Positions 1 through 64,000 of a stretch of DNA of 64,000 nt are shown here, one piece after another; the stretch's first letter is position 1; each line of letters starts with the position of its first letter. The notes under the pieces were generated by a model. The model searched no databases and was not told where the DNA came from. It saw only the letters and a program-made list of their open reading frames with translations. Origin of the DNA: Rhynochetos jubatus (Eukaryota > Chordata > Aves > Eurypygiformes > Rhynochetidae); contig CM050673.1 in NCBI GenBank assembly GCA_027574665.1, positions 8,603,420-8,667,419 of the forward strand, given 5' to 3'. Both the position numbers and the translations under genes were made by a program.

Positions 1-644
1 CTCTTGAGATTCTCCCAGATGTGGGCTGCATTTTGGCTGCCTTTAGGGCTGGAGCTTCTCGTGGTTTGAGGCCTGGCTTGCTCCACCCCCTGCTCTTGAG
101 ATTCTCCCGGATGTGGGCTGCATTTTGGCTGCCTTTTGGGCTGGAGCTTCTCATGGTTTGAGGCCTGCATTGCTCCACCCCCTGCTCTTGAGATTCTCCC
201 GGATGTGGGCTGCATTTTGGCTGCCTTTTGGGCTGGAGCTTCCCGTGGCTTGAGGCCTGGCTTGCTCCACCCCCTGCTCTTGAGATTCTCCCGGATGTGG
301 GCTGCATTTTGGCTGCCTGTTGGGCTGGAGCTTCTTGTGGTTTGAGGCCTGGCTTGCTCCACCCCCTGCTCTTGAGATTCTCCCGGATGTGGGCTGGAGT
401 TTGGGTGATTCTTGGGCTGGATCTTCCCGTGGTTTGAGGCCTGGCTTGCTCCACCCCCTGCTCTTGAGATTCTCCCGGATGTGGTCTGCATTTTGGCTGC
501 CTTTTGGGCTGGAGCTTCTCGTGGTTTGGGGCCTGGCTTGCTCCACCCCCTGCTCCTGAGATTCTCCCGGATGTGGGCTGCATTTTGGCTGATTCTTGGG
601 CTGGAGCTTCTTGTGGTTTGAGGCCTGGCTTGCTCCACCCCCTG
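1..644 (+). repeat. 7-unit block, copy of 3865-4508
   Basis: Units 1-7 match 3865-4508 at an offset of 3,864 bp (42 units). Shared rare features include TTTAGGGCTGG in the first unit, CTCATGG with GCCTGCATTGC in the second, the GGAGTTTGGGTGATTC unit and GATGTGGTCTGC. The match ends at unit 8: 645 onward has CTTCC, whereas 4509 onward has GGAGTTTGGGTG. The window start truncates the block, so its true length is unknown. Confidence 0.8.
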
Positions 645-828
645 CTCTTGAGATTCTCCCGGATGTGGGCTGCATTTTGGCTTCCTTTTGGGCTGGAGCT
701 TCTCGTGGTTTGAGGCCTGGCTTGCTCCACCCCCTGCTCTTGAAATTCTCCTGGAGGTGGGCTGGATTTTGGCTGCCTTTTGGGCTGGAGCTTCTCGTGG
801 TTTGAGGCCTGGCTTGCTCCACCCCCTG

Positions 829-920
829 CTCTTGAGATTCTCCCGGATGTGGGCTGCATTTTGACTTCATTTTGGGCTGGAGCTTCTCGTGGTTTGTGGC
901 CTAGCTTGCTCCACCCCCTG
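829..920 (+). repeat. Variant unit class TTGACTTCATTT + GGCCTAGC (first of about 45)
   Basis: Linked substitutions at unit positions 36, 39 and 41 (TTGACTTCATTT in place of TTGGCTGCCTTT), usually with A69T and G75A (GTTTGTGGCCTAGC), travel together as one haplotype. Further members are near 1,600, 2,890, 3,716, 4,730, 6,384, 7,674, 9,330, 9,882, 11,260, 12,732, 14,110, 15,584, 16,686, 17,238, 18,894, 20,180, 20,732, 21,836, 22,756, 23,860, 25,608, 27,908, 30,574, 31,860, 32,229, 33,516, 34,068, 37,655, 42,254, 43,450, 45,935 and 48,510. None follows 48,567. A sub-form reads GCATGTTTACTTC (for example near 7,850). This class creates both a minus-strand stop (TCA) and an in-frame minus-strand ATG. 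Confidence 0.85.
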
Positions 921-1104
921 CTCTTGAGATTCTCCCGGATGTGGGCTGCATTTTGGCTGCCTGTTGGGCTGGAGCTTCCCGTGGTTTGAGGCCTGGCTTG
1001 CTCCACCCCCTGCTCTTGAGATTCTCCCAGATGTGGGCTGCATTTTGGCTGCCTTTAGGGCTGGAGCTTCTCGTGGTTTGAGGCCTGGCTTGCTCCACCC
1101 CCTG

Positions 1105-1196
1105 CTCTTGAGATTCTCCCGGATGTGGGCTGCATTTTGGCTGCCTTTTGGGCTGGAGCTTCTCGTGGTTTGAGGCCTGGCTTGCTCCACCCCCTG
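1105..1196 (+). repeat. Reference (consensus) 92-bp unit
   Basis: This unit, and the next one at 1197-1288, equals the consensus I derive by eye. Composition is A 7, C 26, G 28, T 31. Landmarks in unit coordinates: CTCTTGAG at 1-8; CCCGG with a CpG at 16-17 (an MspI/HpaII CCGG at 15-18); GATGTGGG at 18-25; three related GGCTG-headed 11-mers at 24-57; CTCGTGG with a second CpG at 60-61; AGGCCT at 69-74; GCTCCACCCCCTG at 80-92. On the plus strand TGA occurs at 5-7 and 67-69. The plus strand contains no TTA, CTA or TCA, so the minus strand has no stop codon in any frame. Confidence 0.95.
1128..1161 (+). repeat. Internal 11-bp subrepeats inside the unit
   Basis: Unit positions 24-34 read GGCTGCATTTT, 35-45 read GGCTGCCTTTT (one mismatch) and 47-57 read GGCTGGAGCTT, with one extra G at 46. 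This suggests that the middle of the 92-mer grew from an 11-bp motif. Variant units with CATTTT in the second copy (for example near 1,968-1,980) make the first two copies identical. Units at 54,824 and 60,424 have lost exactly one 11-mer. Confidence 0.8.
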
Positions 1197-3864
1197 CTCT
1201 TGAGATTCTCCCGGATGTGGGCTGCATTTTGGCTGCCTTTTGGGCTGGAGCTTCTCGTGGTTTGAGGCCTGGCTTGCTCCACCCCCTGCTCTTGAGATTC
1301 TCCCGGAGGTGGGCTGCATTTTGGCTGATTCTTGCGCTGGAGCTTTCCGTGGTTTGAGGCCTGGCTTGCTCCACCCCCTGCTCTTGAGATTCTCCCGGAT
1401 GTGGGCTGCATTTTGGCTGCCTTTTGGGCTGGAGCTTCTCGTGGTTTGAGGCCTGGCTTGCTCCACGCCCTGCTCATGAAATTCTCCCGGAGGTGGGCTG
1501 CATTTTGGCTGCATTTTGGGCTGGAGATTCTCGTGGTTTGAGGCCTGGCTTTCTCGACCCCCTGCTCTTGAGATTCTCCCGGATGTGTGCTGCATTTTGA
1601 CTTCATTTTGGGCTGGAGCTTCTCGTGGTTTGTGGCCTAGCTTGCTCCACCCCCTGCTCTTGAGATTCTCCCGGAGGTGGGCTGCATTTTGGCTGCCTGT
1701 TGGGCTGGAGCTTCCCGTGGTTTGAGGCCTGGCTTGCTCCACCCCCTGCTCTTGAGATTCTCCCGGATGTGGGCTGCATTTTGGCTGCCTTTTGGGCTGG
1801 AGCTTCTCGTGGTTTGAGGCCTGGCTTGCTCCACCCCCTGCTCTTGAGATTCTCCCGGATGTGGGCTGCATTTTGGCTGCCTTTTGGGCTGGAGCTTCTC
1901 GTGGTTTGAGGCCTGGCTTGCTCCACCCCCTGCTCTTGAGATTCTCCCGGATGTGGGCTGCATTTTGGCTGCATTTTGGGCTGGAGCTTCTTGTGGTTTG
2001 GGGCCTGGCTTGCTCCACCCCCTGCTCTTGAGATTCTCCCGGATGTGGGCTGCATTTTGGCTGCCTGTTGGGCTGGAGCTTCTTGTGGTTTGAGGCCTGG
2101 CTTGCTCCACCCCCTGCTCTTGAGATTCTCCCGGAGGTGGGCTGCATTTTGGCTGCCTTTTGGGCTGCAGCTTCTCGTGGTTTGAGGCCTGGCTTGCTCC
2201 ACCCCCTGCTCTTGAAATTCTCCCGGATGTGGGCTGCATTTTGGCTGCCTTTTGGGCTGGAGATTCTCGTGGTTTGAGGCCTGGCTTGCTCCACCCCCTG
2301 CTCTTGAGATTCTCCCGGATGTGGGCTGCATTTTGGCTGCCTTTTGGGCTGGAGCTTCTCGTGGTTTGAGGCCTGGCTTGCTCCACCCCCTGCTCTTGAG
2401 ATTCTCCCAGATGTGGGCTGCATTTTGGCTGCCTTTTGGGCTGGAGCTTCTCGTGGTTTGAGGCCTGGCTTGCTCCACCCCCTGCTCTTGAGATTCTTTG
2501 GGATGTGGGCTGCATTCTGGCTGATTCTTGGGCTGGAGCTTCCCGTGGTTTGAGGCCTGGCTTGCTCCACCCCCTGCTCTTGAGATTCTCCTGGATGTGG
2601 GCTGCATTTTGGCTGCCTTTTGGGCTGGAGCTTCTCGTGGTTTGAGTCCTGGCTTTCTCAACCCCCTGCTCTTGAGATTCTCCCGGATGTGGGCTGCATT
2701 TTGGCTTCCTTTTGGGCTGGAGCTTCTCGTGGTTTGAGGCCTGGCTTGCTCCATCCCCTGCTCTTGAAATTCTCCTGGAGGTGGGCTGGATTTTGGCTGC
2801 CTTTTGGGCTGGAGCTTCTCGTGGTTTGAGGCCTGGCTTGCTCCACCCCCTGCTCTTGAGATTCTCCCGGATGTGGGCTGCATTTTGACTTCATTTTGGG
2901 CTGGAGCTTCTCGTGGTTTGTGGCCTAGCTTGCTCCACCCCCTGCTCTTGAGATTCTCCCGGATGTGGGCTGCATTTTGGCTGCCTGTTGGGCTGGAGCT
3001 TCCTGTGGTTTGAGGCCTGGCTTGCTCCAACCCCTGCTCTTGAGATTCTCCCAGATGTGGGCTGCATTTTGGCTGCCTTTAGGGCTGGAGCTTCTCGTGG
3101 TTTGAGGCCTGGCTTGCTCCACCCCCTGCTCTTGAGATTCTCCCGGATGTGGGCTGCATTTTGGCTGCCTTTTGGGCTGGAGCTTCTCGTGGTTTGAGGC
3201 CTGGCTTGCTCCACCCCCTGCTCTTGAGATTCTCCTGGATGTGGGCTGCATTTTGGCTGCCTTTTGGGCTGGAGCTTCTCGTGGTTTGAGGCCTGGCTTG
3301 CTCCACCCCCTGCTCTTGAGATTCTCCCGGAGGTGGGCTGCATTTTGGCTGATTCTTGGGCTGGAGCTTCCCGTGGTTTGAGGCCTGGCTTGCTCCACCC
3401 CCTGCTCTTGAGATTCTCCCGGAGGTGGGCTGCATTTTGGCTGCCTTTTGGGCTGGAGCTTCTCGAGGTTTGAGGCCTGGCTTGCTCCACCCCCTGCTCT
3501 TGAGATTCTTTGGGATGTGGGCTGCATTTTGGCTTCCTTTTGGGCTGGAGCTTCTCGTGGTTTGAGGCCTGGCTTGCTCCACCCCCTGCTCTTGAAATTC
3601 TCCTGGAGGTGGGCTGCATTTTGGCTGCCTTTCGGGCTGGAGCTTCTCGTGGTTTGAGGCCTGGCTTGCTCCACGCCCTGCTCTTGAGATTCTCCCGGAT
3701 GTGTGCTGCATTTTGACTTCATTTTGGGCTGGAGCTTCTCGTGGTTTGTGGCCTAGCTTGCTCCACCCCCTGCTCTTGAGATTCTCCCGGAGGTGGGCTG
3801 CATTTTGGCTGATTCTTGGGCTGGAGCTTCCCGTGGTTTGAGGCCTGGCTTGCTCCACCCCCTG

Positions 3865-4508
3865 CTCTTGAGATTCTCCCAGATGTGGGCTGCATTTTGG
3901 CTGCCTTTAGGGCTGGAGCTTCTCGTGGTTTGAGGCCTGGCTTGCTCCACCCCCTGCTCTTGAGATTCTCCCGGATGTGGGCTGCATTTTGGCTGCCTTT
4001 TGGGCTGGAGCTTCTCATGGTTTGAGGCCTGCATTGCTCCACCCCCTGCTCTTGAGATTCTCCCGGATGTGGGCTGCATTTTGGCTGCCTTTTGGGCTGG
4101 AGCTTCCCGTGGCTTGAGGCCTGGCTTGCTCCACCCCCTGCTCTTGAGATTCTCCCGGATGTGGGCTGCATTTTGGCTGCCTGTTGGGCTGGAGCTTCTT
4201 GTGGTTTGAGGCCTGGCTTGCTCCACCCCCTGCTCTTGAGATTCTCCCGGATGTGGGCTGGAGTTTGGGTGATTCTTGGGCTGGATCTTCCCGTGGTTTG
4301 AGGCCTGGCTTGCTCCACCCCCTGCTCTTGAGATTCTCCCGGATGTGGTCTGCATTTTGGCTGCCTTTTGGGCTGGAGCTTCTCGTGGTTTGGGGCCTGG
4401 CTTGCTCCACCCCCTGCTCCTGAGATTCTCCCGGATGTGGGCTGCATTTTGGCTGATTCTTGGGCTGGAGCTTCTTGTGGTTTGAGGCCTGGCTTGCTCC
4501 ACCCCCTG
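3865..4508 (+). repeat. 7-unit block, copy of 1-644
   Basis: Partner of 1-644 at an offset of exactly 42 units. The GGAGTTTGGGTGATTC unit is repeated two units later within this copy (near 4,540), suggesting a further small local duplication at its right edge. Confidence 0.8.
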
Positions 4509-5152
4509 CTCTTGAGATTCTCCCGGATGTGGGCTGGAGTTTGGGTGATTCTTGGGCTGGATCTTCCCGTGGTTTGAGGCCTGGCTTGCTCCACCCCCTG
4601 CTCTTGAGATTCTCCCGGATGTGGGCTGCATTTTGGCTGATTCTTGGGCTGGAGCTTCCCGTGGTTTGAGGCCTGGCTTGCTCCACCCCTTGCTCTTGAG
4701 ATTCTCCTGGATGTGGGCTGCATTTTGACTTCATTTTGGGCTGGAGCTTCTCGTGTTTTGTGGCCTAGCTTGCTCCACCCCCTGCTCTTGAGATTCTCCC
4801 AGAGGTGGGCTGCATTTTGGCTGCCTTTTGTGCTGCAGCTTCCAAAGGTTTGAGGCCTGGCTTGCTCCACCCCCTGCTCTTGAGATTCTCCCAGATGTGG
4901 GCTGCATTTTGGCTGCCTTTTGGGCTGGACCTTCTCGTGGTTTGAGGCCTGGCTTGCTCCACCCCCTGCTCTTGAGATTCTCCCGGATGTGGGCTGCATT
5001 TTGGCTGCCTTTTGGGCTGGAGCTTCTCGTGGTTTGAGGCCTGGCTTGCTCCACCCCCTGCTCTTGAGATTCTCCCGGATGTGGGCTGCATTTTGGCTGA
5101 TTCTTGGGCTGGATCTTCCCGTGGTTTGAGGCCTGGCTTGCTCCACCCCCTG

Positions 5153-5243
5153 CTCTTGAGATTCTCCTGGATGTGGGCTGCATTTTGGCTGCCTTTTGGG
5201 CTGGAGATTCTCGTGCTTTGAGGCCTGGCTTGCTCAATCCCTG
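5153..5243 (+). repeat. 91-bp unit class ending CAATCCCTG (10 copies)
   Basis: One C is missing in the C-run (CAATCCCTG), always with GGAGATTCTCGTGC (A at unit position 55, C at 64), so all ten descend from one ancestor unit. The motif starts at 5,232, 10,661, 13,512, 17,742, 21,236, 23,260 (CTATCCCTG), 26,112, 28,411, 34,572 and 37,056. It is an excellent marker for counting block duplications, and is absent before 5.1 kb and after 37.1 kb. Confidence 0.9.
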
Positions 5244-5611
5244 CTCTTGAGATTCTCCCGGATGTGGGCTGCATTTTGGCTGCCTTTTGGGCTGGAGCTT
5301 CTCGTGGTTTGAGGCCTGGCTTGCTCCACCCCCTGCTCTTGAGATTCTCCCGGATGTGGGCTGCATTTTGGCTGCCTTTTGGGCTGGAGCTTCTCGTGGT
5401 TTGAGGCCTGGCTTGCTCCACCCCCTGCTCTTGAGATTCTCCCGGAGGTGGGCTGCATTTTGGCTGCCTTTTGGGCTGGAGCTTCTCGTGGTTTGTGGCC
5501 TAGCTTGCTCCACCCCCTGCTCTTGAGATTCTCCCAGATGTGGGCTGCATTTTGGCTGCCTTTAGGGCTGGAGCTTCTCGTGGTTTGAGGCCTGGCTTGC
5601 TCCACCCCCTG

Positions 5612-5704
5612 CTCTTGAGATTCTCCCCGCATGTGGGCTGCATTTTGGCTGCCTTTTGGGCTGGAGCTTCTCGAGGTTTGAGGCCTGGCTTGCTCCACCC
5701 CCTG
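5612..5704 (+). repeat. 93-bp unit with CTCCCCGCATGTGG
   Basis: One base is gained at the CCCGG site, and a CpG remains but in a changed context. The same unit occurs near 34,966 (surrounding units also match, offset 29,340 bp) and in a related form near 45,543. Confidence 0.8.
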
Positions 5705-6624
5705 CTCTTGAGATTCTCCCGGATGTGGGCTGCATTTTGGCTGCCTTTTGGGCTGGAGCTTCCCGTGGCTTGAGGCCTGGCTTGCTCCACCCCCTGCTCT
5801 TGAGATTCTCCCGGATGTGGGCTGCATTTTGGCTGCCTGTTGGGCTGGAGCTTCTTGTGGTTTGAGGCCTGGCTTGCTCCACCCCCTGCTCTTGAGATTC
5901 TGCCGGATGTGGGCTGGAGTTTGGGTGACTCTTGGGCTGGATCTTCCCGTGGTTTGAGGCCTGGCTTGCTCCACCCCCTGCTCTTGAGATTCTCCCGGAT
6001 GTGGGCTGCATTTTGGCTGCCTTTTGGGCTGGAGCTTCTCGTGGTTTGAGGCCTGGCTTGCTCCACCCCCTGCTCTTGAGATTCTCCCGGATGTGGGCTG
6101 CATTTTGGCTGCCTTTTGGGCTGGAGCTTCTCGTGGTTTGGGGCCTGGCTTGCTCCACCCCCTGCTCCTGAGATTCTCCCGGATGTGGGCTGCATTTTGG
6201 CTGCCTGTTGGGCTGGAGCTTCTTGTGGTTTGAGGCCTGGCTTGCTCCACCCCCTGCTCTTGAGATTCTCCCGGAGGTGGGCTGCATTTTGGCTGATTCT
6301 TGGGCTGGAGCTTCCCGTGGTTTGAGGCCTGGCTTGCTCCACCCCTTACTCTTGAGATTCTCCCGGATGTGGGCTGCATTTTGACTTCATTTTGGGCTGG
6401 AGCTTCTCGTGGTTTGTGGCCTGGCTTGCTCCACCCCCTGCTCTTGAGATTCTCCCGGAGGTGGGCTGCATTTTGGCTGCCTTTTGTGCTGGAGCTTCCA
6501 ATGGTTTGAGGCCTGGCTTTCTCCACCCCCTGCTCTTGAGATTCTCCCGGATGTGGGCTGCATTTTGGCTGCCTTTTGGGCTGGAGCTTCTTGTGGTTTG
6601 AGGCCTGGCTTGCTCAAACCCCTG

Positions 6625-6718
6625 CTCTTGAGATTCTCCCGGATGTGGGCTGCATATTTTGGCTGATTCTTGGGCTGGATCTTCCCGTGGTTTGAGGCCT
6701 GGCTTGCTCCACCCCCTG
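6625..6718 (+). repeat. 94-bp unit with GCATATTTTGG
   Basis: Two bases (AT) are inserted in the GCATTTT run near 6,654. This is the only +2 unit I found in the window, so it is a private mutation, not yet spread. Confidence 0.8.
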
Positions 6719-8006
6719 CTCTTGAGATTCTCCTGGATGTGGGCTGCATTTTGGCTGAATTTTGGGCTGGAGCTTCTCGTGGTTTGAGGCCTGGCTTGCT
6801 CCACCCCCTGCTCTTGAGATTCTCCCGGATGTGGGCTGCATTTTGGCTGCCTTTTGGGCTGGAGCTTCTCGTGGTTTGAGGCCTGGCTTGCTCCACCCCC
6901 TGCTCTTGAGATTCTCCCGGATGTGGGCTGCATTTTGGCTGCCTTTTGGGCTGGAGCTTCTCCTGGTTTGAGGCCTGGCTTGCTCCACCCCCTGCTTTTG
7001 AGATTCTCCCGGAGGTGGGCTGCATTTTGGCTGATTCTTGGGCTGGAACTTCCCGTGGTTTGAGGCCTGGCTTGCTCCACCCCCTGCTCTTGAGATTCTC
7101 CCGGATGTGGGCTGCATTTTGGCTGCTTTTTGGGCTGGAGCTTCTCGTGGTTTGAGGCCTGGCTTGCTCAACCCCCTGCTCTTGAGATTCTCCCGGATGT
7201 GGGCTGCATTTTGGCTTCCTTTTGGGCTGGAGCTTCTCGTGGTTTGAGGCCTGGCTTGCTCCACCCCCTGCTCTTGAGATTCTCCCAGATGTGGGCTGCA
7301 TTTTGGCTGCCTTTTGGGCTGGAGCTTCTCGTGGTTTGAGGCCTGGCTTGCTCCACCCCCTGCTCTTGAGATTCTCCCGGATGTGGGCTGCATTTTGGCT
7401 GCCTTTTGGGCTGGAGCTTCTCGTGGTTTGGGGCCTGGCTTGCTCCACCCCCTGCTCTTGAGATTCTCCCGGATGTGGGCTGCATTTTGGCTGCCTGTTG
7501 GGCTGGAGCTTCTTGTGGTTTGAGGCCTGGCTTGCTCCACCCCCTGCTCTTGAGATTCTCCCGGATGTGGGCTGCATTTTGGCTGATTCTTGGGCTGGAG
7601 CTTCCCGTGGTTTGAGGCCTGGCTTGCTCCACCCCTTGCTCTTGAGATTCTCCCGGATGTGGGCTGCATTTTGACTTCATTTTGGGCTGGAGCTTCTCGT
7701 GGTTTGTGGCCTAGCTTGCTCCACCCCCTGCTCTTGAGATTCTCCCAGAGGTGGGCTGCATTTTGGCTGCCTTTTGTGCTGCAGCTTCCAATGGTTTGAG
7801 GCCTGGCTTGCTCCACCCCCTGCTCTTGAGATTCTCCCAGATGTGGGCTGCATGTTTACTTCATTTTGGGCTGGAGCTTCTCGTGGTTTGTGGCCTAGCT
7901 TGCTCCACCCCCTGCTCTTGAGATTTTCCCGGAGGTGGGCTGCATTTTGGCTGCCTTTTGGGCTGGAGCTTCTCGTGGTTTGAGGCCTGGCTTGCTCCAC
8001 CCCCTG

Positions 8007-8097
8007 CTCTTGAGATTCTCCCGGAGGTGGGCTGCATTTTGGCTGCCTTTGGGCTGGAGCTTCTTGTGGTTTGAGGCCTGGCTTGCTCCACCCCCTG
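8007..8097 (+). repeat. 91-bp unit class with GCCTTTGGGC (5 copies)
   Basis: One T is missing from the TTTT run at unit positions 42-45, with GGAGGTGGG and CTTCTTGTGG. Members are near 8,046, 15,954, 19,264, 30,946 and 32,601. Each lies about three units downstream of the GCATGTTTACTTC unit, so the whole cassette moves as a piece. Confidence 0.85.
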
Positions 8098-9753
8098 CTC
8101 TTGAGATTCTCCCGGATGTGGGCTGCATTTTGGCTGATTCTTGGGCTGGATCTTCCCGTGGTTTGAGGCCTGGCTTGCTCCACCCCCTGCTCTTGAGATT
8201 CTCCTGGATGTGGGCTGCATTTTGGCTGCCTTTTGGGCTGGAGCTTCTCGTGGTTTGAGGCCTGGCTTGCTCAATCCCCTGCTCTTGAGATTCTCCCGGA
8301 TGTGGGCTGCATTTTGGCTGCCTTTTGGGCTGGAGCTTCTCGTGGTTTGAGGCCTGGCTTGCTCCACCCCCTGCTCTTGAGATTCTCCCGGAGGTGGGCT
8401 GCATTTTGGCTGCCTTTTGGGCTGGAGCTTCTTGTGGTTTGAGGCCTGGCTTGCTCCACCCCCTGCTCTTGAAATTCTCCTGGAGGTGGGCTGCATTTTG
8501 GCTGCCTTTTGGGCTGGAGCTTCTCGTGGTTTGAGGCCTGGCTTGCTCCACCCCCTGCTCTTGAAATTCTCCCGGATGTGGGCTGCATTTTGGCTGCCTT
8601 TTGGGCTGGAGATTCTCGTGGTTTGAGGCCTGGCTTGCTCCACCCCCTGCTCTTGAGATTCTCCCGGATGTGGGCTGGATTTTGGCTGCCTTTTGGGCTG
8701 GAGCTTCTCGTGGTTTGAGGCCTGGCTTGCTCCACCCCCTGCTCTTGAGATTCTCCCAGATGTGGGCTGCATTTTGGCTGCCTTTTGGGCTGGAGCTTCT
8801 CGTGGTTTGAGGCCTGGCTTGCTCCACCCCCTGCTCTTGAGATTCTTTGGGATGTGGGCTGCATTCTGGCTGATTCTTGGGCTGGAGCTTCCCGTGGTTT
8901 GAGGCCTGGCTTGCTCCACCCCCTGCTCTTGAGATTCTCCCGGAGGTGGGCTGCATTTTGGCTGATTCTTGGGCTGGAGCTTCCCGTGGTTTGAGGCCTG
9001 GCTTGCTCCACCCCCTGCTCTTGAGATTCTCCCGGAGGTGGGCTGCATTTTGGCTGCCTTTTGGGCTGGAGCTTCTCGTGGTTTGAGTCCTGGCTTTCTC
9101 AACCCCCTGCTCTTGAGATTCTCCCGGATGTGGGCTGCATTTTGGCTTCCTTTTGGGCTGGAGCTTCTCGTGGTTTGAGGCCTGGATTGCTCCACCCCCT
9201 GCTCTTGAGATTCTCAGGGAGGTGGGCTGCATTTTGGCTGCCTTTTGGGCTGGAGCTTCTCGTGGTTTGAGGCCTGGCTTGCTCCACCCCCTGCTCTTGA
9301 GATTCTCCCGGATGTGTGCTGCATTTTGACTTCATTTTGGGCTGGAGCTTCTCGTGGTTTGTGGCCTAGCTTGCTCCACCCCCTGCTCTTGAGATTCTCC
9401 CGGAGGTGGGCTGCATTTTGGCTGCCTGTTGGGCTGGAGCTTCTCGTGGTTTGAGGCCTGGCTTGCTCCACCCCCTGCTCTTGAGATTCTCCCAGATGTG
9501 GGCTGCATTTTGGCTGCCTTTTGGGCTGGAGCTTCTCGTGGTTTGAGGCCTGGCTTGCTCCACCCCCTGCTCTTGAGATTCTCCCGGATGTGGGCTGCAT
9601 TTTGGCTGCCTTTTGGGCTGGAGCTTCTCGTGGTTTGAGGCCTGGCTTGCTCCACCCCCTGCTCTTGAGATTCTCCCGGATGTGGGCTGCATTTTGGCTG
9701 CCTTTTGGGCTGGAGCTTCTCGTGGTTTGGAGCCTGGCTTGCTCCACCCCCTG

Positions 9754-18045: not shown

Positions 18046-18049
18046 GGAG

Positions 18050-47300: not shown

Positions 47301-48567
47301 TGGGCTGCATTTTGGCTGAATTTTGGGCTGGAGCTTCTCGTGGTTTGAGGCCTGGCTTGCTCAACCCCCTGCTCTTGAGATTCTCCCGGATGTGGGCTGC
47401 ATTTTGGCTGCCTTTTGGGCTGGAGCTTCTCGTGGTTTGAGGCCTGGCTTGCTCCACCCCCTGCTCTTGAGATTCTCCCGGAGGTGGGCTGCATTTTGGC
47501 TGCCTTTTGGGCTGGAGCTTCTCGTGGTTTGAGGCCTGGCTTGCTCCACCCCCTGCTCTTGAGATTCTCCTGGAGGTGGGCTGCATTTTGGCTGATTCTT
47601 GGGCTGGAGCGTCCCGTGGTTTGAGGCCTGGCTTGCTCCACCCCCTGCTCTTGAGATTCTCCCGGAGGTGGGCTGCATTTTGGCTGCATTTTGGGCTGGA
47701 GCTTCCAATGGTTTGAGGCCTGGCTTGCTCCACCCCCTGCTCTTGAGATTCTCCTGGATGTGGGCTGCATTTTGGCTGCCTTTTGGGCGGGACCTTCTCG
47801 TGGTTTGAGGCCTGGCTTGCTCCACCCCCTGCTCTTGAGATTCTTTGGGATGTGGGCTGCATTTTGGCTGCCTTTTGGGCTGGAGCTTCTCGTGGTTTGA
47901 GGCCTGGCTTGCTCCACCCCCTGCTCTTGAGATTCTTTGGGATGTGGGCTGCATTTTTGCTGCCTTTTGGGCTGGAGCTTCTCGTGGTTTGGGGCCTGGC
48001 TTGCTCCACCCCCTGCTCTTGAGATTCTCCCGGATGTGGGCTGCATTTTGGCAGCCTGTTGGGCTGGAGCTTTTCGTGGTTTGAGGCCTGGCTTGCTCCA
48101 CCCCCTGCTCTTGAGATTCTCCCGGAGGTGGGCTGCATTTTGGCTGCCTTTGCGGCTGGAGCTTCTCGTGGTTTGAGGCCTGGCTTGCTCCACCCCCTGC
48201 TCTTGAGATTCTCCCAGAGGTGGGCTGCATTTTGGCTGATTCTTGGGCTGGAGCTTCCCGTGGTTTGAGGCCTGGCTTGCTCCACCCCCTGCTCTTGAGA
48301 TTCTCCCGGAGGTGGGCTGAATTTTGGCTGCTTTTTGGGCTGGAGCTTCTCGTGGTTTGAGGCCTGGCTTGCTCCACCCCCTGCTCTTGAAATTCTCCCG
48401 GAGGTGGGCTGCATTTTGGCTGCCTTTTGGGCTGGAGCTTCTCGTGGTTTGAGGCCTGGCTTGCTCCACCCCCTGCTCTTGAGATTCTCCCGGATGTGGG
48501 CTGCATTTTGACTTCATTTTGGGCTGGAGCTTCTCGTGGTTTGTGGCCTAGATTACTCCACCCCCTG

Positions 48568-50975: not shown

Positions 50976-51235
50976 GGAGGTGGGCTGCATTTTGGCTGCC
51001 TGTTGGGCTGGAGCTTCTCGTGGTTTGAGGCCTGGCTTGCTCCACCCCCTGCTCTTGAGATTCTCCCGGAGGTGGGCTGCATTTTGGCTGCCTTTTGGGC
51101 TGGAGCTTCTCGTGGTTTGAGGCCTGGCTTGCTCCACCCCCTGCTCTTGAGATTCTCCCGGATGTGGGCTGCATTTTGGCTGCCTTTTCGGCTGGAGCTT
51201 CTTGTGGTTTGAGGCCTGGCTTGCTCCACCCCCTG

Positions 51236-53643: not shown

Positions 53644-54271
53644 AGATGTGGGCTGCATTTTGGCTGCCTTTTGGGCTGGAGCTTCTTGTGGTTTGAGGCC
53701 TGGCTTGCTCCACCCCCTGCTCTTGATATTCTCCCGGATGTGGGCTTCATTTTGGCTGCCTTTGGGGCTGTAGCTTCTCGTGGTTTGAGGCCTGGCTTGC
53801 TCCACCCCCTGCTCTTGATATTCTCCCGGATGTGGGCTGCATTTTGGCTTCATTTTGGGCTGGAGCTTCTCGAGGTTTGTGGCCTGGCTTGCTCCACCCC
53901 CTGCTCTTGAGATTCTCACGGATGTGGGCTGCATTTTGGCTGATTCTTGGGCTGGAGCGTCCCGTGGTTTGAGGCCTGGCTTGCTCCACCCCCTGCTCTT
54001 GAGATTCTCCCAGATGTGGGCTGCATTTTGGCTGCGTTTAGGGCTGGAGCTTCTCGTGGTTTGAGGCCTGGCTTGCTCCACCCCCTGCTCTTGAGATTCT
54101 CCCGGATGTGGGCTGCATTTTGGCTGCCTTTTGGGCTGGAGCTTCTCGTGGTTTGAGGCCTGGCTTGCTCCACCCCCTGCTCTTGAGATTCTCCCGGATG
54201 TGGGCTGGATTTTGGCTCCCTTTTGGTCTGGAGCTTCTCGAGGTTTGAGGCCTGGCTTGCTCCACCCCCTG

Positions 54272-54363
54272 CTCTTGAGATTCTCCTGGATGTGGGCTGC
54301 ATTTTGGCTACATTTTAAGCTGGAGCTTCTCATGGTTTGAGGCCTGGCTTGCTCCACCCCCTG
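54272..54363 (+). repeat. Variant unit class ACATTTTAAGCTGG (3 copies)
   Basis: TGCCTTTTGGGCTGG is changed to TACATTTTAAGCTGG, with CTCCTGGATG and CTCATGG. Further copies are at 59504-59595 and 59780-59871, only three units apart, so a three-unit tandem duplication happened in the right-hand copy. Each is followed by a unit starting CTCTTGAGCTTCTCCC. Confidence 0.85.
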
Positions 54364-54823
54364 CTCTTGAGCTTCTCCCAGATGTGGGCTGCATTTTGGC
54401 TGCGTTTAGGGCTGGATCTTATTGTGGTTTGAGGCCTGGCTTGCTCCACCCCCTGCTCTTGAGATTCTCCCGGAGGTGGGCTGCATTTTGCCTGATTCTT
54501 GGGCTGGAGCTTCCCGTGGTTTGAGGTCTGGCTTGCTCCACCCCCTGCTCTTGAGATTCTCCCAGATGTGGGCTGCATTTTGGCTGCCTTTAGGGCTGGA
54601 GCTTCTTGTGGTTTGAGGCCTGGCTTGCTCCACCCCCTGCTCTTGAGATTCTCCCGGAGGTGGGCTGCATTTTGGCTGCCTTTTGGGCTGGAGCTTCTCG
54701 TGGTTTGAGGCCTGGCTTGCTCCACCCCCTGTTCTTGAGATTCTCCCGGAGGTGTGCTGCATTTTGGCTTCATTTTGGGCTGGAGCTTCTCGTGGTTTGT
54801 GGCCTGGCTTGCTCCACCCCCTG

Positions 54824-54904
54824 CTCTTGAGATTCTCCCGGATGTGGGCTGCCTTTTGGGCTGGAGCTTCTCGTGGTTTGAGGCCTGGCTTGCTCCACCC
54901 CCTG
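54824..54904 (+). repeat. 81-bp unit with exact 11-bp loss
   Basis: GGGCTGCCTTTTGGGC follows directly on GATGT: one of the two adjacent GGCTGC(A/C)TTTT 11-mers has been removed. The 11-mers are direct repeats, so slippage or recombination between them explains the loss. The duplicated block carries the same unit at 60424-60504. Confidence 0.9.
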
Positions 54905-56192
54905 CTCTTGAGATTCTCCCGGAGGTGGGCTGCATTTTGGCTCCCTTTTGGGCTGGAGCTTCTCGAGGTTTGAGGCCTGGCTTGCTCCACCCCCTGCTCT
55001 TGAGATTCTTTGGGATGTGGGCTGGATTTTGGCTGCCTTTTGGGGTGGAGCTTCTCATGGTTTGAGGCCTGGCTTGCTCCACCCCCTGCTCTTGAGATTC
55101 TCCCGGAGGTGGGCTGCATTTTGGCTGCCTTTTGGGCTGGAGCTTCTCGTGGTTTGAGGCCTGGCTTGCTCCACCCCCTGCTCTTGAGATTCTCCCGGAT
55201 GTGGGCTGCATTTTGGCTTCATTTTGGGCTGGAGCTTCTCGAGGTTTGTGGCCTGGCTTGCTCCACCCCCTGCTCTTGAGATTCTCCCGGATGTGGGCTG
55301 GATTTTGGCTGCATTTTGGGCTGGAGCTTCTCGTGGTTTGAGGCCTGGCTTGCTCCACCCCCTGCTCTTGAGATTCTCCTGGATGTGGGCTGCATTTTGG
55401 CTGCCTGTTGGGCTGGAGCTTCTCGTGGTTTGAGGCCTGGCTTGCTCCACCCCCTGCTCTCGATATTCTCCCAGATGTGGGCTGCATTTTGGCTTCATTT
55501 TGGGCTGGAGCTTCTCCAGGATTGTGGCCTGGCTTGCTCCACCCCCTGCTCTTGAGATTCTCCCAGATGTGGGCTGCATTTTGGCTGCCTTTTGGGCTGG
55601 AGATTCTCGTGGTTTGAGGCCTGGCTTGCTCCACCCCCTGCTCGTGATATTCTCCCGGATGTGGGCTGCATTTTGGCTGCCTTTTGGGCTGGAGCTTCTC
55701 GTGGTTTGAGGCCTGGCTTGCTCCACCCCCTGCTCTTGAGATTCTCCCGGATGTGGGCTGCATTTTGGCTGCCTTTTGGGCTGGAGCTTCTCGTGGTTTG
55801 AGGCCTGGCTTGCTCCACCCCCTGCTCTTGAGATTCTCCCGGATGTGGGCTGCATTTTGGCTGCCTTTTGGGCTGGAGCTTCTCGTGGTTTGAAGCCTGG
55901 CTTGCTCCACCCCCTGCTCTTGAGATTCTCCCGGATGTGGGCTGCATTTTGGCTGCCTTTTGGGCTGGAGCTTCTCGTGGTTTGGGGCCTGGCTTGCTCC
56001 ACCCCCTGCTCTTGAGATTCTCCCGGATGTGGGCTGCATTTTGGCTGCATTTTGGGCTGGAGCTTCTCGTGGTTTGAGGCCTGGCTTGCTCCACCCCCTG
56101 CTCTTGAGATTCTCCCGGATGTGGGCTGCATTTTGGCTGCATTTTGGGCTGTAGCTTCTCGTGGTTTGAGGCCTGGCTTGCTCCACCCCCTG

Positions 56193-56285
56193 CTCTTGAG
56201 ATTCTCCCGGATGTGGGCTGCGTTTGTGGTTGCATTTTGGGCTGGAAATTTTCGTTGTTTGAGGCCTGGCTTGCTCCACCCCCTG
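56193..56285 (+). repeat. Unusual 93-bp unit with GTTTGTGGTTGCATTTT
   Basis: The most rearranged single unit seen: GCGTTTGTGGTTGC replaces GCATTTTGGCTGC, followed by GGAAATTTTCGTTG in place of GGAGCTTCTCGTGG. It lies in the roughly seven-unit stretch that is present in domain-4 copy 1 and missing from copy 2. Confidence 0.75.
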
Positions 56286-59200
56286 CTCTTGAGATTCTCC
56301 CTGATGTGGTCTGGAGTTTGGCTGCCTTTTGGGCTGGAGCTTCTTGTGGTTTGAGGCCTGGCTTCCTCCACCCCCTGCTCTTGAGATTCTCCCGGATGTG
56401 GGCTGAATTTTGGCTGATTCTTGGGCTGGAACTTCTCGTGGTTTGAGGCCTGGCTTGCTCCACCCCCTGCTCTTGAGATTCTCCCGGATGTGGGCTGCAT
56501 TTTGGCTGCATTTTGGGCTGGAGCTTCTCGTGGTTTGAGGCCTGGCTTGCTCCACCCCCTGCTCTTGAGATTCTCCCGGAGGTGGGCTGCATTTTGGCTG
56601 CCTTTTGGGCTGGAGCTTCTCGTGGTTTGAGGCCTGGCTTGCTCCACCCCCTGCTCTTGAGATTCTCCCGGATGTGGGCTGCATTTTGGCTGATTCTTGG
56701 GCTAGAGCTTCTCGTGGTTTGAGGCCTGGCTTGCTCCACCCCCTGCTCTTGAGATTCTCCCAGAGGTGGGCTGCATTTTGGCTGCCTTTTGGGCTGGAGC
56801 TTCTCGTGGTTTGAGGCCTGGCTTGCTCCACCCCCTGCTCTTGAGATTCTCCCGGATGTGGGCTGCATTTTGGCTGCCTTTTGGGCTGGAGCTTCTCGTG
56901 GTTTGAGGCCTGGCTTGCTCCACCCCCTGCTCTTGAGATTCTCCCGGATGTGGGCTGCATTTTGGCTGCCTGTTGGGCTGGAGCTTCTTGTGGTTTGAGG
57001 CCTGGCTTGCTCCACCCCCTGCTCTTGAGATTCTCCCGGATGTGGGCTGCATTTTGGCTGCCTTTTGGGCTGGAGCTTCTCGTGGTTTGGGGCCTGGCTT
57101 GCTCCACCCCCTGCTCTTGAGATTCTCCCGGAGGTGGGCTGCATTTTGGCTGCCTTTTGGGCTGGAGCTTCTCGTGGTTTGAGGCCTGGCTTGCTCCACC
57201 CCCTGCTCTTGATATTCTCCCGGATGTGGGCTTCATTTTGGCTGCCTTTTGGGCTGGAGCTTCTCGTGGTTTGAGGCCTGGCTTGCTCCACCCCCTGCTC
57301 TTGATATTCTCCTGGATGTGGGCTTCATTTTGGCTGCATTTTGTGCTGGAGCTTCTCGTGGTTTGAGGCCTGGCTTGCTCCACCCCCTGCTCTTGAGATT
57401 CTCCCGGATGTGTGCTGCATGTTGGCTGATTCTTGGGCTGGAGCTTCTCGTGTTTTGAGGCCTGGCTTGCTCCACCCCCTGCTCTTGAGATTCTCCCGGA
57501 TGTGGGCTGCATTTGGCTGCCATTCGGGCTGGAGCTTCTCGTGGTTTGAGGCCTGGCTTGCTCCACCCCCTGCTCTTGAGATTCTCCCGGAGGTGGGCTG
57601 CATTTTGGCTGCCTTTTGGGCTGGAGATTCTCATGGTTTGAGGCCTGGCTTGCTCCACCCCCTGCTCTTGAGATTCTCCCGGATGTTGGCTGGATTTTGG
57701 CTGCCTTTTGGGCTGGAGCTTCTCGTGGTTTGGGGCCTGGCTTGCTCCACCCCCTGCTCTTGAGATTCTCCCGGATGTGGCCTGGATTTTGGCTGCATTT
57801 TGGGCTGGAGCTTCTTGTGGTTTGAGGCCTGGCTTGCTCCACCCCCTGCTCTTGAGATTCTCCCGGATGTGGGCTGCATTTTGGCTGCATTTTGGGCTGG
57901 AGCTTCTCGTGGTTTGAGGCCTGGCTTGCTCCACCCCCTGCTCTTGAGATTCTCCCGGAGGTGGGCTGCATTTTGGCTGATTCTTGGGCTGGAACTTCTC
58001 GTGGTTTGAGGCCTGGCTTGCTCCACCCCCTGCTCTTGAGATTCTCCCGGATGTGGGCTGCATTTTGGCTGCCTTTTGGGCTGGAGCTTCTCGTGGTTTG
58101 AGGCCTGGCTTGCTCCACGCCCTGCTCTTGATATTCTCCCGGATGTGGGCTGAATTTTGGCTGATTCTTGGGCTGGAACTTCTCGTGGTTTGAGGCCTGG
58201 CTTGCTCCACCCCCTGCTCTTGAGATTCTCCCGGATGTGGGCTGCATTTTGGCTGATTCTTGGGCTGGAGCTTCTCGTGGTTTGAGGCCTGGCTTGCTCC
58301 AGCCCCTGCTCTTGAGATTCTCCCGGATGTGGACTGCATTTTGGCTGCCTTTTAGGATGGAGCGTCTCGTGTTTTGAGGCCTGGCTTGCTCCACACCCTG
58401 CTCTTGAGATTCTCCTGCAGGTGGGCTGCATTTGGCTGCCTTTCGGGCTGGAGCTTCTAGTGGTTTGAGGCCTGGCTTGCTCCACCCCCTGCTCTTGAGA
58501 TTCTCCCGGATGTGGGCTGCATTTTGGCTGCCTTTTGGGCTGGAGCTTCTCGTGGTTTGAGGCCTGGCTTGCTCCACCCCCTGCTCTTGAGATTCTCCCG
58601 GATGTGGGCTGCATTTTGGCTGATTCTTGGGCTGGAGCTTCCCGTGGTTTGAGGCCTGGCTTGCTCCACCCCCTGCTCTTGAGATTCTCCTGGATGTGGG
58701 CTGCATTTTGGCTGCCTATTGGGCTGGAGCTTCTCGTGGTTTGAGGCCTGGCTTGCTCCACCCCCTGCCCTTGAGATTCTCCCGCAGGTGGGCTGCATTT
58801 TGGCTGCCTTTTGGGCTGGAGCTTCTCGTGGTTTGAGGCCTGGCTTGCTCCACCCCTTGCTTTTGAGATTCTCCTGGAGGTGGGCTGCATTTTGGCTTCA
58901 TTTTGGGCTGGAGCTTCTCGAGGTTTGTGGCCTGGCTTGCTCCACCCCCTGCTCTTGAGATTCTCCCAGATGTGGGCTGCATTTTGGCTGCCTTTTGGGC
59001 TGGAGCTTCTCGTGGTTTGAGGCCTGGCTTGCTCCACCCCCTGCTCTTGAGATTCTCCCAGATGTGGGCTGCATTTTGGGTACATTTTGGGCTGGAGCTT
59101 CTCATGGTTTGAGGCCTGCCTTGCTCCACCCCCTGCTCTTGAGATTCTCCCGGAGGTGGGCTGCATTTTGGCTGCCTGTTGGGCTGGAGCTTCTCGTGGT

Positions 59201-59963
59201 TTGAGGCCTGGCTTGCTCCACCCCCTGCTCTTGAGATTCTCCCGGATGTGGGCTGCATTTTGGCTGCCTTTTGGGCTGGAGCTTCTTGTGGTTTGAGGCC
59301 TGGCTTGCTCCACCCCCTGCTCTTGAGATTCTCCCGGATGTGGGCTGCATTTTGGCTGCCTTTTGGGCTGGAGCTTCTCGTGGTTTGAGGCCTGGCTTGC
59401 TCCACCCCCTGATCTTGAGATTCTCCCGGAGGTGGGCTGCATTTTGGCTGCCTTTTGGGCTGGAGTTTCTCGTGGTTTGAGGCCTGGCTTGCTCCACCCC
59501 CTGCTCTTGAGATTCTCCTGGATGTGGGCTGCATTTTGGCTACATTTTAAGCTGGAGCTTCTCATGGTTTGAGGCCTGGCTTGCTCCACCCCCTGCTCTT
59601 GAGCTTCTCCCAGATGTGGGCTGGATTTTGGCTGCCTTTTGTGCTGGAGCTTCTCGTGGTTTGAGGCCTGGCTTGCTCCACCCCCTGCTCTTGAGATTCT
59701 CCCGGATGTGGGCTGCATTTTGGCTGCCTTTTGGGCTGGAGCTTCTCGAGGTTTGAGGCCTGGCTTGCTCCACCCCCTGCTCTTGAGATTCTCCTGGATG
59801 TGGGCTGCATTTTGGCTACATTTTAAGCTGGAGCTTCTCATGGTTTGAGGCCTGGCTTGCTCCACCCCCTGCTCTTGAGCTTCTCCCAGATGTGGGCTGG
59901 ATTTTGGCTGCCTTTTGTGCTGGAGCTTCTCGTGGTTTGAGGCCTGGCTTGCTCCACCCCCTG

Positions 59964-62900
59964 CTCTTGAGATTCTCCCAGATGTGGGCTGCATTTTGGC
60001 TGCGTTTAGGGCTGGATCTTCTTGTGGTTTGAGGCCTGGCTTGCTCCACCCCCTGCTCTTGAGATTCTCCCGGAGGTGGGCTGCATTTTGCCTGATTCTT
60101 GGGCTGGAGCTTCCCGTGGTTTGAGGTCTGGCTTGCTCCACCCCCTGCTCTTGAGATTCTCCCAGATGTGGGCTGCATTTTGGCTGCGTTTAGGGCTGGA
60201 GCTTCTTGTGGTTTGAGGCCTGGCTTGCTCCACCCCCTGCTCTTGAGATTCTCCCGGAGGTGGGCTGCATTTTGGCTGCCTTTTGGGCTGGAGCTTCTCG
60301 TGGTTTGAGGCCTGGCTTGCTCCACCCCCTGTTCTTGAGATTCTCCCGGAGGTGTGCTGCATTTTGGCTTCATTTTGGGCTGGAGCTTCTCGTGGTTTGT
60401 GGCCTGGCTTGCTCCACCCCCTGCTCTTGAGATTCTCCCGGATGTGGGCTGCCTTTTGGGCTGGAGCTTCTCGTGGTTTGAGGCCTGGCTTGCTCCACCC
60501 CCTGCTCTTGAGATTCTCCCGGATGTGGGCTGGATTTTGGCTCCCTTTTGGGCTGGAGCTTCTCGAGGTTTGAGGCCTGACTTGCTCCACCCCCTGCTCT
60601 TGAGATTCTTTGGGATGTGGGCTGGATTTTGGCTGCCTTTTGGGGTGGAGCTTCTCATGGTTTGAGGCCTGGCTTGCTCCACCCCCTGCTCTTGAGATTC
60701 TCCCGGAGGTGGGCTGCATTTTGGCTGCCTTTTGGGCTGGAGCTTCTCGTGGTTTGAGGCCTGGCTTGCTCCACCCCCTGCTCTTGAGATTCTCCCGGAT
60801 GTGGGCTGCATTTTGGCTTCATTTTGGGCTGGAGCTTCTCGAGGTTTGTGGCCTGGCTTGCTCCACCCCCTGCTCTTGAGATTCTCCCGGATGTGGGCTG
60901 CATTTTGGCTGCATTTTGGGCTGGAGCTTCTCGTGGTTTGAGGCCTGGCTTGCTCCACCCCCTTGCTCTTGAGATTCTCCTGGATGTGGGCTGCATTTTG
61001 GCTGCCTGTTGGGCTGGAGCTTCTCGTGGTTTGAGGCCTGGCTTGCTCCACCCCCTGCTCTCGATATTCTCCCAGATGTGGGCTGCATTTTGGCTTCATT
61101 TTGGGCTGGAGCTTCTCCAGGATTGTGGCCTGGCTTGCTCCACCCCCTGCTCTTGAGATTCTTCCAGATGTGGGCTGCATTTTGGCTGCCTTTTGGGCTG
61201 GAGATTCTCGTGGTTTGAGGCCTGGCTTGCTCCACCCCCTGCTCTTGAGATTCTCCCGGATGTGGGCTGCATTTTGGCTGCCTTTTGGGCTGGAGCTTCT
61301 CGTGGTTTGAGGCCTGGCTTGCTCCACCCCCTGCTCTTGAGATTCTCCCGGATGTGGGCTGCATTTTGGCTGCCTTTTGGGCTGGAGCTTCTCGTGGTTT
61401 GAGGCCTGGCTTGCTCCACCCCCTGCTCTTGAGATTCTCCCGGATGTGGGCTGCATTTTGGCTGCCTTTTGGGCTGGAGCTTCTCGTGGTTTGAAGCCTG
61501 GCTTGCTCCACCCCCTGCTCTTGAGATTCTCCCGGATGTGGGCTGCATTTTGGCTGCCTTTTGGGCTGGAGCTTCTCGTGGTTTGAAGCCTGGCTTGCTC
61601 CACCCCCTGCTCTTGAGATTCTCCCGGATGTGGGCTGCATTTTGGCTGCCTTTTGGGCTGGAGCTTCTCGTGGTTTGGGGCCTGGCTTGCTCCACCCCCT
61701 GCTCTTGAGATTCTCCCGGATGTGGGCTGCATTTTGGCTGCCTTTTGGGCTGGAGCTTCTCGTGGTTTGAGGCCTGGCTTGCTCCACCCCCTGCTCTTGA
61801 GATTCTCCCGGATGTGGGCTGCATTTTGGCTGCCTGTTGGGCTGGAGCTTCTCGTGGTTTGAGGCCTGGCTTGCTCCACCCCCTGCTCTTGAGATTCTCC
61901 CGGATGTGGGCTGCATTTTGGCTGCCTTTTGTGCTGGAGCTTCTCGTGGTTTGAGGCCTGGCTTGCTCCACCCCCTGCTCTTGAGATTCTCCCGGATGTG
62001 GGCTGCATTTTGGCTGCCTTTTGGGCTGGAGCTTCTCGTGGTTTGGGGCCTGGCTTGCTCCACCCCCTGCTCTTGAGATTCTCCCGGAGGTGGGCTGCAT
62101 TTTGGCTGCCTTTTGGGCTGGAGCTTCTCGTGGTTTGAGGCCTGGCTTGCTCCACCCCCTGCTCTTGAGATTCTCCTGGATGTGGGCTTCATTTTGGCTG
62201 CCTTTTGGGCTGGAGCTTCTCGTGGTTTGAGGCCTGGCTTGCTCCACCCCCTGCTCTTGATATTCTCCCAGATGTGGGCTTCATTTTGGCTGCATTTTGT
62301 GCTGGAGATTCTCGTGGTTTGAGGCCTGGCTTGCTCCACCCCCTGCTCTTGAGATTCTCCCGGATGTGTGCTGCATGTTGGCTGATTCTTGGGCTGGAGC
62401 TTCTCGTGTTTTGAGGCCTGGCTTGCTCCACCCCCTGCTCTTGAGATTCTCCCGGATGTGGGCTGCATTTGGCTGCCATTCGGGCTGGAGCTTCTCGTGG
62501 TTTGAGGCCTGGCTTGCTCCACCCCCTGCTCTTGAGATTCTCCCGGAGGTGGGCTGCATTTTGGCTGCCTTTTGGGCTGGAGATTCTCATGGTTTGAGGC
62601 CTGGCTTGCTCCACCCCCTGCTCTTGAGATTCTCCCGGATGTTGGCTGGATTTTGGCTGCCTTTTGGGCTGGAGCTTCTCGTGGTTTGGGGCCTGGCTTG
62701 CTCCACCCCCTGCTCTTGAGATTCTCCCGGATGTGGCCTGGATTTTGGCTGCATTTTGGGCTGGAGCTTCTCGTGGTTTGAGGCCTGGCTTGCTCCACCC
62801 CCTGCTCTTGAGATTCTCCCGGATGTGGGCTGGATTTTGGCTGCCTTTTGGGCTGGAGCTTCTCGTGGTTTGAGGCCTGGCTTGCTCCACCCCCTGCTCT

Positions 62901-64000
62901 TGAGATTCTCCCGGATGTGGGCTGCATTTTGGCTGATTCTTGGGCTGGAACTTCTCGTGGTTTGAGGCCTGGCTTGCTCCACCCCCTGCTCTTGAGATTC
63001 TCCCGGATGTGGGCTGGATTTTGGCTGCCTTTTGGGCTGGAGCTTCTCGTGGTTTGAGGCCTGGCTTGCTCCACGCCCTGCTCTTGATATTCTCCCGGAT
63101 GTGGGCTGAATTTTGGCTGATTCTTGGGCTGGAACTTCTCGTGGTTTGAGGCCTGGCTTGCTCCACCCCCTGCTCTTGAGATTCTCCCGGATGTGGGCTG
63201 CATTTTGGCTGATTCTTGGGCTGGAGCTTCTCGTGGTTTGAGGCCTGGCTTGCTCCAGCCCCTGCTCTTGAGATTCTCCCGGATGTGGACTGCATTTTGG
63301 CTGCCTTTTAGGATGGAGCGTCTCGTGTTTTGAGGCCTGGCTTGCTCCACACCCTGCTCTTGAGATTCTCCTGCAGGTGGGCTGCATTTGGCTGCCTTTC
63401 GGGCTGGAGCTTCTAGTGGTTTGAGGCCTGGCTTGCTCCACCCCCTGCTCTTGAGATTCTCCCGGAGGTGGGCTGCATTTTGGCTGCCTTTTGGGCTGGA
63501 GCTTCTCGTGGTTTGAGGCCTGGCTTGCTCCACCCCCTGCTCTTGAGATTCTCCCGGATGTGGGCTGCATTTTGGCTGATTCTTGGGCTGGAGCTTCCCG
63601 TGGTTTGAGGCCTGGCTTGCTCCACCCCCTGCTCTTGAGATTCTCCTGGATGTGGGCTGCATTTTGGCTGCCTATTGGGCTGGAGCTTCTCGTGGTTTGA
63701 GGCCTGGCTTGCTCCACCCCCTGCCCTTGAGATTCTCCCGCAGGTGGGCTGCATTTTGGCTGCCTTTTGGGCTGGAGCTTCTCGTGGTTTGAGGCCTGGC
63801 TTGCTCCACCCCTTGCTTTTGAGATTCTCCTGGAGGTGGGCTGCATTTTGGCTTCATTTTGGGCTGGAGCTTCTCGAGGTTTGTGGCCTGGCTTGCTCCA
63901 CCCCCTGCTCTTGAGATTCTCCCAGATGTGGGCTGCATTTTGGCTGCCTTTTGGGCTGGAGCTTCTCGTGGTTTGAGGCCTGGCTTGCTCCACCCCCTGC
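59964..64000 (+). repeat. Large domain-4 block, copy 2 (truncated by window end)
   Basis: Partner of 54364-59044, with several substitutions. It has one tandem single-unit gain: a TTTGAAGCCTGG unit occurs once near 55,891 but twice here, near 61,492 and 61,584. It also has a 93-bp unit with CACCCCCTTGCTC near 60,957. Homology is still continuing at base 64,000. Confidence 0.8.
60424..60504 (+). repeat. 81-bp unit with exact 11-bp loss, second copy
   Basis: Same deletion as at 54824-54904 and in the same context (preceded by a GGAGGTGTGCTGC unit with GGCTTCATTTT). It was inherited through the domain-4 block duplication rather than arising independently. Confidence 0.9.

Follow-up and report, generated by a model that had tools for sequence, protein, structure and literature searches.

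The window, by which we mean the whole stretch of 64,000 nucleotides analysed here, is a genuine satellite array and belongs to a familiar kind. It is probably the interior of a large array in the constitutive heterochromatin of a CpG-methylating animal, where it would turn over block by block and encode no product. This explanation draws on a continuous same-strand array, on shared unit types and multi-unit blocks that are nearly identical (a number of them directly in tandem), on neighbouring units without excess similarity, and on an excess of transitions at CpG.

Organization of the array

Tandem Repeats Finder and wraparound alignment show that the window (1..64000, plus strand) is a tandem array with 696 complete units, each about 92 bp long and all in a single orientation, and one additional base; the array extends past both ends of the window. 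The original prediction of a satellite continuous over 64 kb had named Tandem Repeats Finder as a check, and the program indeed placed the entire window in one row (1-64000, period 92, 696.0 copies, 93% matches, 0% indels); its only two other rows were short period-11 stretches within units (2138-2169 and 55294-55325). Alignment to the 92-bp consensus yielded 666 units of 92 bp, 20 of 91, 7 of 93, 2 of 81 and 1 of 94, a total of 63,999 that with the additional base gives 64,000, so that the predicted arithmetic (696 x 92 - 33 = 63,999) is exact. The most divergent of all 696 units departs from the consensus at only 11 positions, and there is therefore no inverted, foreign or spacer unit, in agreement with the prediction of one orientation lacking transposons, inversions and unique spacers. 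GC content stays between 57.3 and 58.5% across all 16 blocks of 4 kb. In autocorrelation without phase correction, the 92-bp period merely fades with distance, because indels shift the phase.

The 696 units comprise 244 sequence types, with a mean divergence of 3.6% from the consensus and 6.2% between pairs, and 581 of them recur identically at another place in the window when inserted bases are left out of the comparison. Two hallmarks of a satellite are present: a long head-to-tail array of a single unit (696 units, 64 kb), and unit types that are shared and homogenized within it, as is also evident from the block duplications described below. Base changes are absent from 22 of the 92 columns of the alignment, and 20 columns are free of both changes and gaps; variant types number 128 in total. 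By an arithmetic estimate, about 23 empty columns would be expected under a Poisson distribution; selection is therefore not needed to account for the invariant columns, and constraint on them was rejected.

Duplication of multi-unit blocks

Blocks of duplicated units within the array were absent from the original prediction and were found in the follow-up. Near-identical blocks of at least 6 units cover 472 of the 696 units, compared to 0 in each of 10 shuffled unit orders, and the longest run of units with at most one difference reaches 32 (2.9 kb) vs. 3-5 in 20 shuffles of unit order. That run is a tandem duplication at 9754..15547 (end computed from unit starts), in which 32 units are matched 31 units downstream with 2 differences in approximately 2.9 kb. 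Further tandem duplications, all on the plus strand and with approximate ends, involve 25 units at a lag of 25 (25481..30079; 3 differences in approximately 2.3 kb) and 18 units at a lag of 18 (30447..33757; no differences), and a block of 26 units is duplicated at a lag of 29 (48568..53627; 1 difference in approximately 2.4 kb). Directly tandem copies occur at lags of 13, 18, 25 and 31 units, and divergences between blocks are graded from 0 to 0.9%. No regular higher-order repeat was detected across the window: the local lags of 13, 18, 25, 29, 31 and 38 units, and longer ones, have no common period, and a dimeric or higher-order organization of the alpha-satellite type was rejected on these grounds.

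Adjacent units were identical in 9 of 695 cases vs. 10.7 expected, and the mean difference at lag 1, with repeated pairs removed, was slightly above random (5.95 vs. 5.81, sd 0.07, P 0.0145). Since neighbours are no more alike than random pairs, slippage of single units is disfavored as the main process. We simulated duplication with two runs for each block size (a single unit and approximately 2, 4, 8, 15, 25 and 40 units), and single-unit duplication left 456 identical neighbours in both runs, with a ratio of lag-1 to mean difference of 0.34-0.37. Identical neighbours numbered 208-217 with blocks of about 2 units, 47-51 with blocks of 4, and 0-14 with blocks of 8, 15, 25 or 40, the range that contains the observed 9. 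Blocks of 15-40 units placed 552-644 units within duplicated blocks and blocks of 8 placed 403-439, compared to the 472 observed, and at size 8 the longest run (12-13) was too short relative to the observed 32. The observed ratio of 1.045 exceeds that of all eight simulated runs with blocks of at least 8 units (0.985-1.011), and the simulations finished with 201-229 unit types vs. 244 in the window. We infer that the array would grow and shrink through out-of-register (unequal) exchange or break-induced copying, in steps that may span approximately 8-40 units (0.7-3.7 kb) and would be mostly local.

CpG transitions and internal repeats

Transitions occupy 9.4% of cells at the four CpG columns, compared to 1.26% at 12 CHG and 1.21% at 38 CHH sites, making C-to-T change approximately 7-fold higher at CpG than in either other context. 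The usual plant pattern is one of CHG transitions above CHH. Each of the four CpG transitions, which come from two CpG sites, was found on 19-31 unit backgrounds. Some columns outside CpG are more variable still: columns 20, 39, 40, 41, 43, 59 and 69 hold more non-consensus cells than any CpG column, and the change at column 20 is found on 70 unit backgrounds and that at column 59 on 57, more than for any of the CpG transitions. Column 41 alone has 127 C-to-T cells, above any CpG column, linked with changes at columns 40 and 43 as read off the common unit types. The transition excess at these four CpG columns suggests that the host is an animal with CpG methylation, in whose germ line these cytosines would be, or would formerly have been, methylated.

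The unit may also retain traces of its origin. An 81-bp unit at 54824..54904 (plus strand) has an 11-bp deletion between copies of GGCTGC spaced 11 bp apart, which we read as slippage between internal sub-repeats, and a similar 81-bp unit at 60424 lies in a block copied at a lag of 61 units. When the unit is compared with itself, internal shifts by 12, 23 and 46 bp give more matches than shuffles do (P 0.006, 0.004 and 0.003, respectively). However, a gapped half-to-half alignment of the unit was not above chance (P 0.40), and derivation from short ancestral repeats is therefore only suggested. A period of 10.2 bp within the unit was not supported (P 0.60), and one of 11.5 bp, with P 0.045 among 14 periods tested, was judged unconvincing. 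The mouse major satellite is an example of a satellite grown from short ancestral repeats; the internal shifts and the 11-bp loss between internal copies resemble it, whereas the chance-level alignment of the two halves does not.

Comparison with known satellites

The original prediction had called the satellite unrecognised; the unbroken 64-kb array stood, but this label was only weakly tested, against four collections, mostly prokaryotic or viral, in which no match was found. A 1104-base query had no match among plasmids or phages, and an exact 25-mer had none among viral or prokaryote genome contigs, where a eukaryotic satellite is in any case unexpected. The literature search found no paper on a "92-bp satellite" as a phrase. 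Three 12-mers from the unit were also sought on both strands, and no paper had two of them on the same strand; the single paper returned, on worm gene editing by its title, had one 12-mer and its own reverse complement. An ape-genome paper (PMC12058530) contains neither a 92-bp wording nor the words new or novel satellite, and the 92-bp wording in PMC6790999 is an unrelated human Y-chromosome use. By these comparisons the satellite has no name here, which does not imply its absence from print. By length alone, the unit matches the tandem centromeric repeat CentGm-1 / SB92 of soybean, described in PMC11447526 as 90-92 bp; that is a plant repeat, whereas here CHG transitions are no higher than CHH. 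Barley HchH1Sat02-92 (PMC11447152), compared by its description, is likewise a plant satellite, with a 92-bp unit and 46-bp relatives that recall the suggestive 46-bp internal shift seen here. In kind, there is also a likeness to the GC-rich heterochromatic satellites of vertebrates, shared in the long same-strand array, the GC content of 57-58%, the CpG transition excess and the lack of any product found.

Alternative explanations

It seems improbable that the array is an assembly artefact, whether through collapse, through expansion or through the wrong joining of two arrays at approximately 40-42 kb. A lack of low-divergence sharing across approximately 39.6-42.3 kb was absent from the original prediction: no low-divergence pair of 12-unit windows crosses units 430 to 460 (39552..42311, end approximate). 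Many low-divergence blocks are shared within the left part (1..39551) and fewer within the right part (42312..64000); the first 440 units hold 122 unit types and the last 256 hold 143. The frequencies of 15 listed variants differ by a factor of 4 or more between the two sides of unit 440, and some of these variants are missing on one side. This zone and the 18-unit block repeated without a difference are what an artefact has in its favor. However, the excess of between-side over within-side differences per unit pair is only 0.054 at unit 440, below that at units 520 (0.098) and 600 (0.094), and 21 unit types are common to both sides. The count of crossings, 316 at unit 270, also drops little by little to reach 19 at unit 410, and zeros recur at units 510, 530 and 590. 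A simple copy-paste expansion sits poorly with the many unit types and with the graded divergence of the blocks. The pattern near 40-42 kb is a hint that two amplification domains meet there. That the minus strand of the array encodes a repetitive protein or RNA is far less likely still, scarcely to be entertained, despite 55 rows of open frames that reach 400 codons or more (longest 1458), all on that strand, where the consensus has no stops in any of three frames. Few stops are expected there because T is rare on the minus strand; stop-making variants arise at the chance rate (17 of 128 variant types vs. 38 of 276 possible changes), and 70-81 stops occur per frame along the window. Stops are thus not avoided, and minus-strand coding was rejected. 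Pfam returned one match for a 360-residue stretch, 17 residues of Colicin_E5 (E 0.0019; 18.9 bits vs. a curated cut-off of 25), taken as chance. Rfam had no match reaching the gathering score, either in the first 10 kb or in the whole window, and a structured RNA was rejected on this basis.

Somewhat more credible, yet unlikely, is a role as the primary satellite at active centromeres, with the centromeric histone bound to it. Centromere cores have long, uninterrupted same-strand arrays whose recent block amplification is focused on one part, as is the case here, and the soybean repeat indicates that a 92-bp unit can be centromeric. Against this stand the missing regular higher-order repeat and the 6.2% divergence between units. 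The consensus-like unit at 1105..1196 (plus strand), picked out by the original prediction, showed no single-strand folding beyond chance in two registers on two strands (z -0.61, -1.39, 0.44 and -0.16). The unit also lacks a CENP-B-like box, a weak point since many centromeres lack one. Tolerating up to 2 mismatches to the motif, we found 4 sites in 64 kb (696 units); a chance figure of 68, obtained by shuffling the 64 kb, is not an adequate baseline for a sequence made of copies of a single unit. It is similarly doubtful that we have here an undescribed GC-rich, A-poor family serving as the main (peri)centromeric satellite of an animal host, with kilobase block copying in discrete exchange domains and near-absent single-unit slippage.

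Judged from its sequence, the array is most likely non-coding constitutive heterochromatin, pericentromeric, subtelomeric or sex-chromosomal, and would act through bulk chromatin rather than through an encoded product. Satellite arrays vary greatly between species and many are uncatalogued, and the general view of satellites is unchanged by this one. Its length and variety make part of its copying history legible, and it adds a data point on satellite turnover that separates block copying from single-unit slippage.

Extent and internal structure of the array

The satellite array is real and fills the window; it is long, GC-rich and ordinary in kind. Tandem Repeats Finder reported positions 1-64000 as a single array of period 92 with 696 copies at 93% matches, together with two short stretches of period 11 within it. 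Wraparound alignment resolved the window into 696 complete units and a single leftover base; it used 51 single-base indel steps altogether, and the summed unit lengths equal the window length exactly. Therefore, the original prediction of 696 units and its arithmetic (696 x 92 - 33 = 63,999) were correct. Its description of the array as uninterrupted and in one orientation also holds: the most divergent of the 696 units differs from the 92-bp consensus at only 11 positions and 65 units are identical to it, which leaves no room for an insert, inversion or spacer.

The GC content is 57.3-58.5% across 4-kb blocks, and A is scarce on the plus strand (5459 A and 21595 T of 64000). Because T is correspondingly scarce on the minus strand, that strand carries long open frames of up to 1458 codons, and all three of its reading frames lack stops in the consensus. 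Coding on this strand was considered and rejected, as stop-making variants occur at the expected rate (17 of 128 observed types vs. 38 of 276 possible changes); each minus-strand frame contains 70-81 stops. There was no Rfam match, four foldings of one unit showed no excess of structure, and the unit contains no CENP-B-like box. A Pfam search with one 360-aa stretch gave a single below-cut-off match, to 17 residues of Colicin_E5, which we took as chance.

Circular shifts of the unit by 12, 23 and 46 bp gave 38, 39 and 46 matches of 92, above dinucleotide-preserving shuffles (P 0.006, 0.004 and 0.003, respectively; P 0.005 when the maximum is taken over shifts 6-46), but a gapped alignment of one half of the unit to the other was not above chance (P 0.40). 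Two 81-bp units, at 54824-54904 and 60424-60504, share an identical loss of 11 bp between GGCTGC copies lying 11 bp apart. Both belong to a block whose two copies lie 61 units apart, so the loss was probably one event. Derivation of the unit from shorter repeats is suggested.

Neither a 1104-base stretch searched against plasmids and phages nor an exact 25-mer searched against viral contigs and prokaryote genome contigs found a match, although a eukaryotic satellite is not expected in these collections. In a text search of the literature, no two different same-strand 12-mers, of three tested from the unit, were found together. Satellites of 92 bp are reported from soybean (PMC11447526) and barley (PMC11447152), and they resemble the present unit in length.

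Duplicated blocks and turnover

Diagonals of the unit-by-unit distance table revealed 40 near-identical blocks above the score limit, the longest having 2 differences over its 32 units (2.9 kb), and one of 18 units having none. The longest run was 3-5 units in 20 shuffled unit orders, and runs of at least 6 units, absent from each of 10 shuffles, contain 472 of the 696 units. Since block lags vary (13, 18, 25, 29, 31, 38 and longer), there is no fixed higher-order repeat.

Of the 695 pairs of neighbouring units, 9 consist of identical units (10.7 expected), so neighbours are not similar. Simulated single-unit duplication left 456 identical neighbours in both runs, blocks of about 2 left 208-217, blocks of 4 left 47-51, and blocks of 8, 15, 25 or 40 left 0-14; therefore, copying in blocks of about 8 units or more fits best. 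These simulations were simple, and no single block size matched all measures together: blocks of 8 gave a longest run of 12-13 units (vs. 32), blocks of 15-40 placed 552-644 units in blocks (vs. 472), and the runs finished at 201-229 distinct unit types (vs. 244). The observed lag-1 ratio of 1.045 exceeded every simulation run.

Across 1-64000, adjoining units resemble one another slightly less than randomly paired units do. Their mean difference is 6.00 vs. 5.74 (sd 0.06) in shuffles, or 5.95 vs. 5.81 (sd 0.07; P 0.0145) with repeated pairs removed, and columns 59 and 69 of the consensus were the only ones above the printed limit of 0.03.

Among 20 columns with variants at 4% or more, mean r-squared was 0.061 at distances <15 bp, had dropped to 0.006-0.015 at distances of 45-183 bp, and neared the value expected by chance (0.0014) by around 1.9 kb. 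The unit border left no step in this decay, and thus breakpoints of exchange or conversion seem to lie at any position within the unit.

Low-divergence pairs of 12-unit windows (721 pairs with mean difference <2.5, crossings tested every 5 units) cross unit 270 in 316 cases and units 430-460 (39,552 to about 42,311) in none, a pattern that a junction between two amplification domains, or between two assembled pieces, could give. The first 440 units comprise 122 types and the last 256 comprise 143, with 21 common to both, and 15 variants are at least 4-fold more frequent on one side than on the other, which makes the left side look the more recently amplified of the two. Three results argue against a sharp border: the between-side difference exceeds the within-side difference by 0.054, a smaller excess than splits at units 520 and 600 produce (0.098 and 0.094); crossings drop gradually up to unit 425; and zero counts recur at units 510, 530 and 590. 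A misjoin in this zone is conceivable.

CpG variation and maintenance

Units differ from the consensus by a mean of 3.28 positions and from one another by 5.74 (6.2%). Transitions occupy 9.4% of cells at the four CpG columns, which represent only two CpG sites with clonally inherited cells, vs. 1.26% for CHG (12 sites) and 1.21% for CHH (38 sites). At columns 60, 17, 16 and 61 they occur on 30, 29, 31 and 19 distinct unit backgrounds, of which 9, 8, 6 and 2 are also present with the consensus base (mean 1.1 for 44 other transitions). Methylation at CpG but not, as in plants, at CHG would fit this pattern, which makes an animal host the most likely, and probably a vertebrate one.

The small number of CpG sites and the clonal inheritance of cells weaken this argument, as does the fact that seven non-CpG columns (20, 39, 40, 41, 43, 59 and 69) are more variable than any CpG column. 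Column 41 has 127 C-to-T cells, and joint changes at columns 40, 41 and 43 in common unit types look like one linked variant. The column 20 change is found on 70 backgrounds and the column 59 change on 57, more than any of the other 18 changes printed, and CpG does not account for either. The most likely reading is that the array forms constitutive heterochromatin and is maintained through exchange of kilobase-sized blocks.
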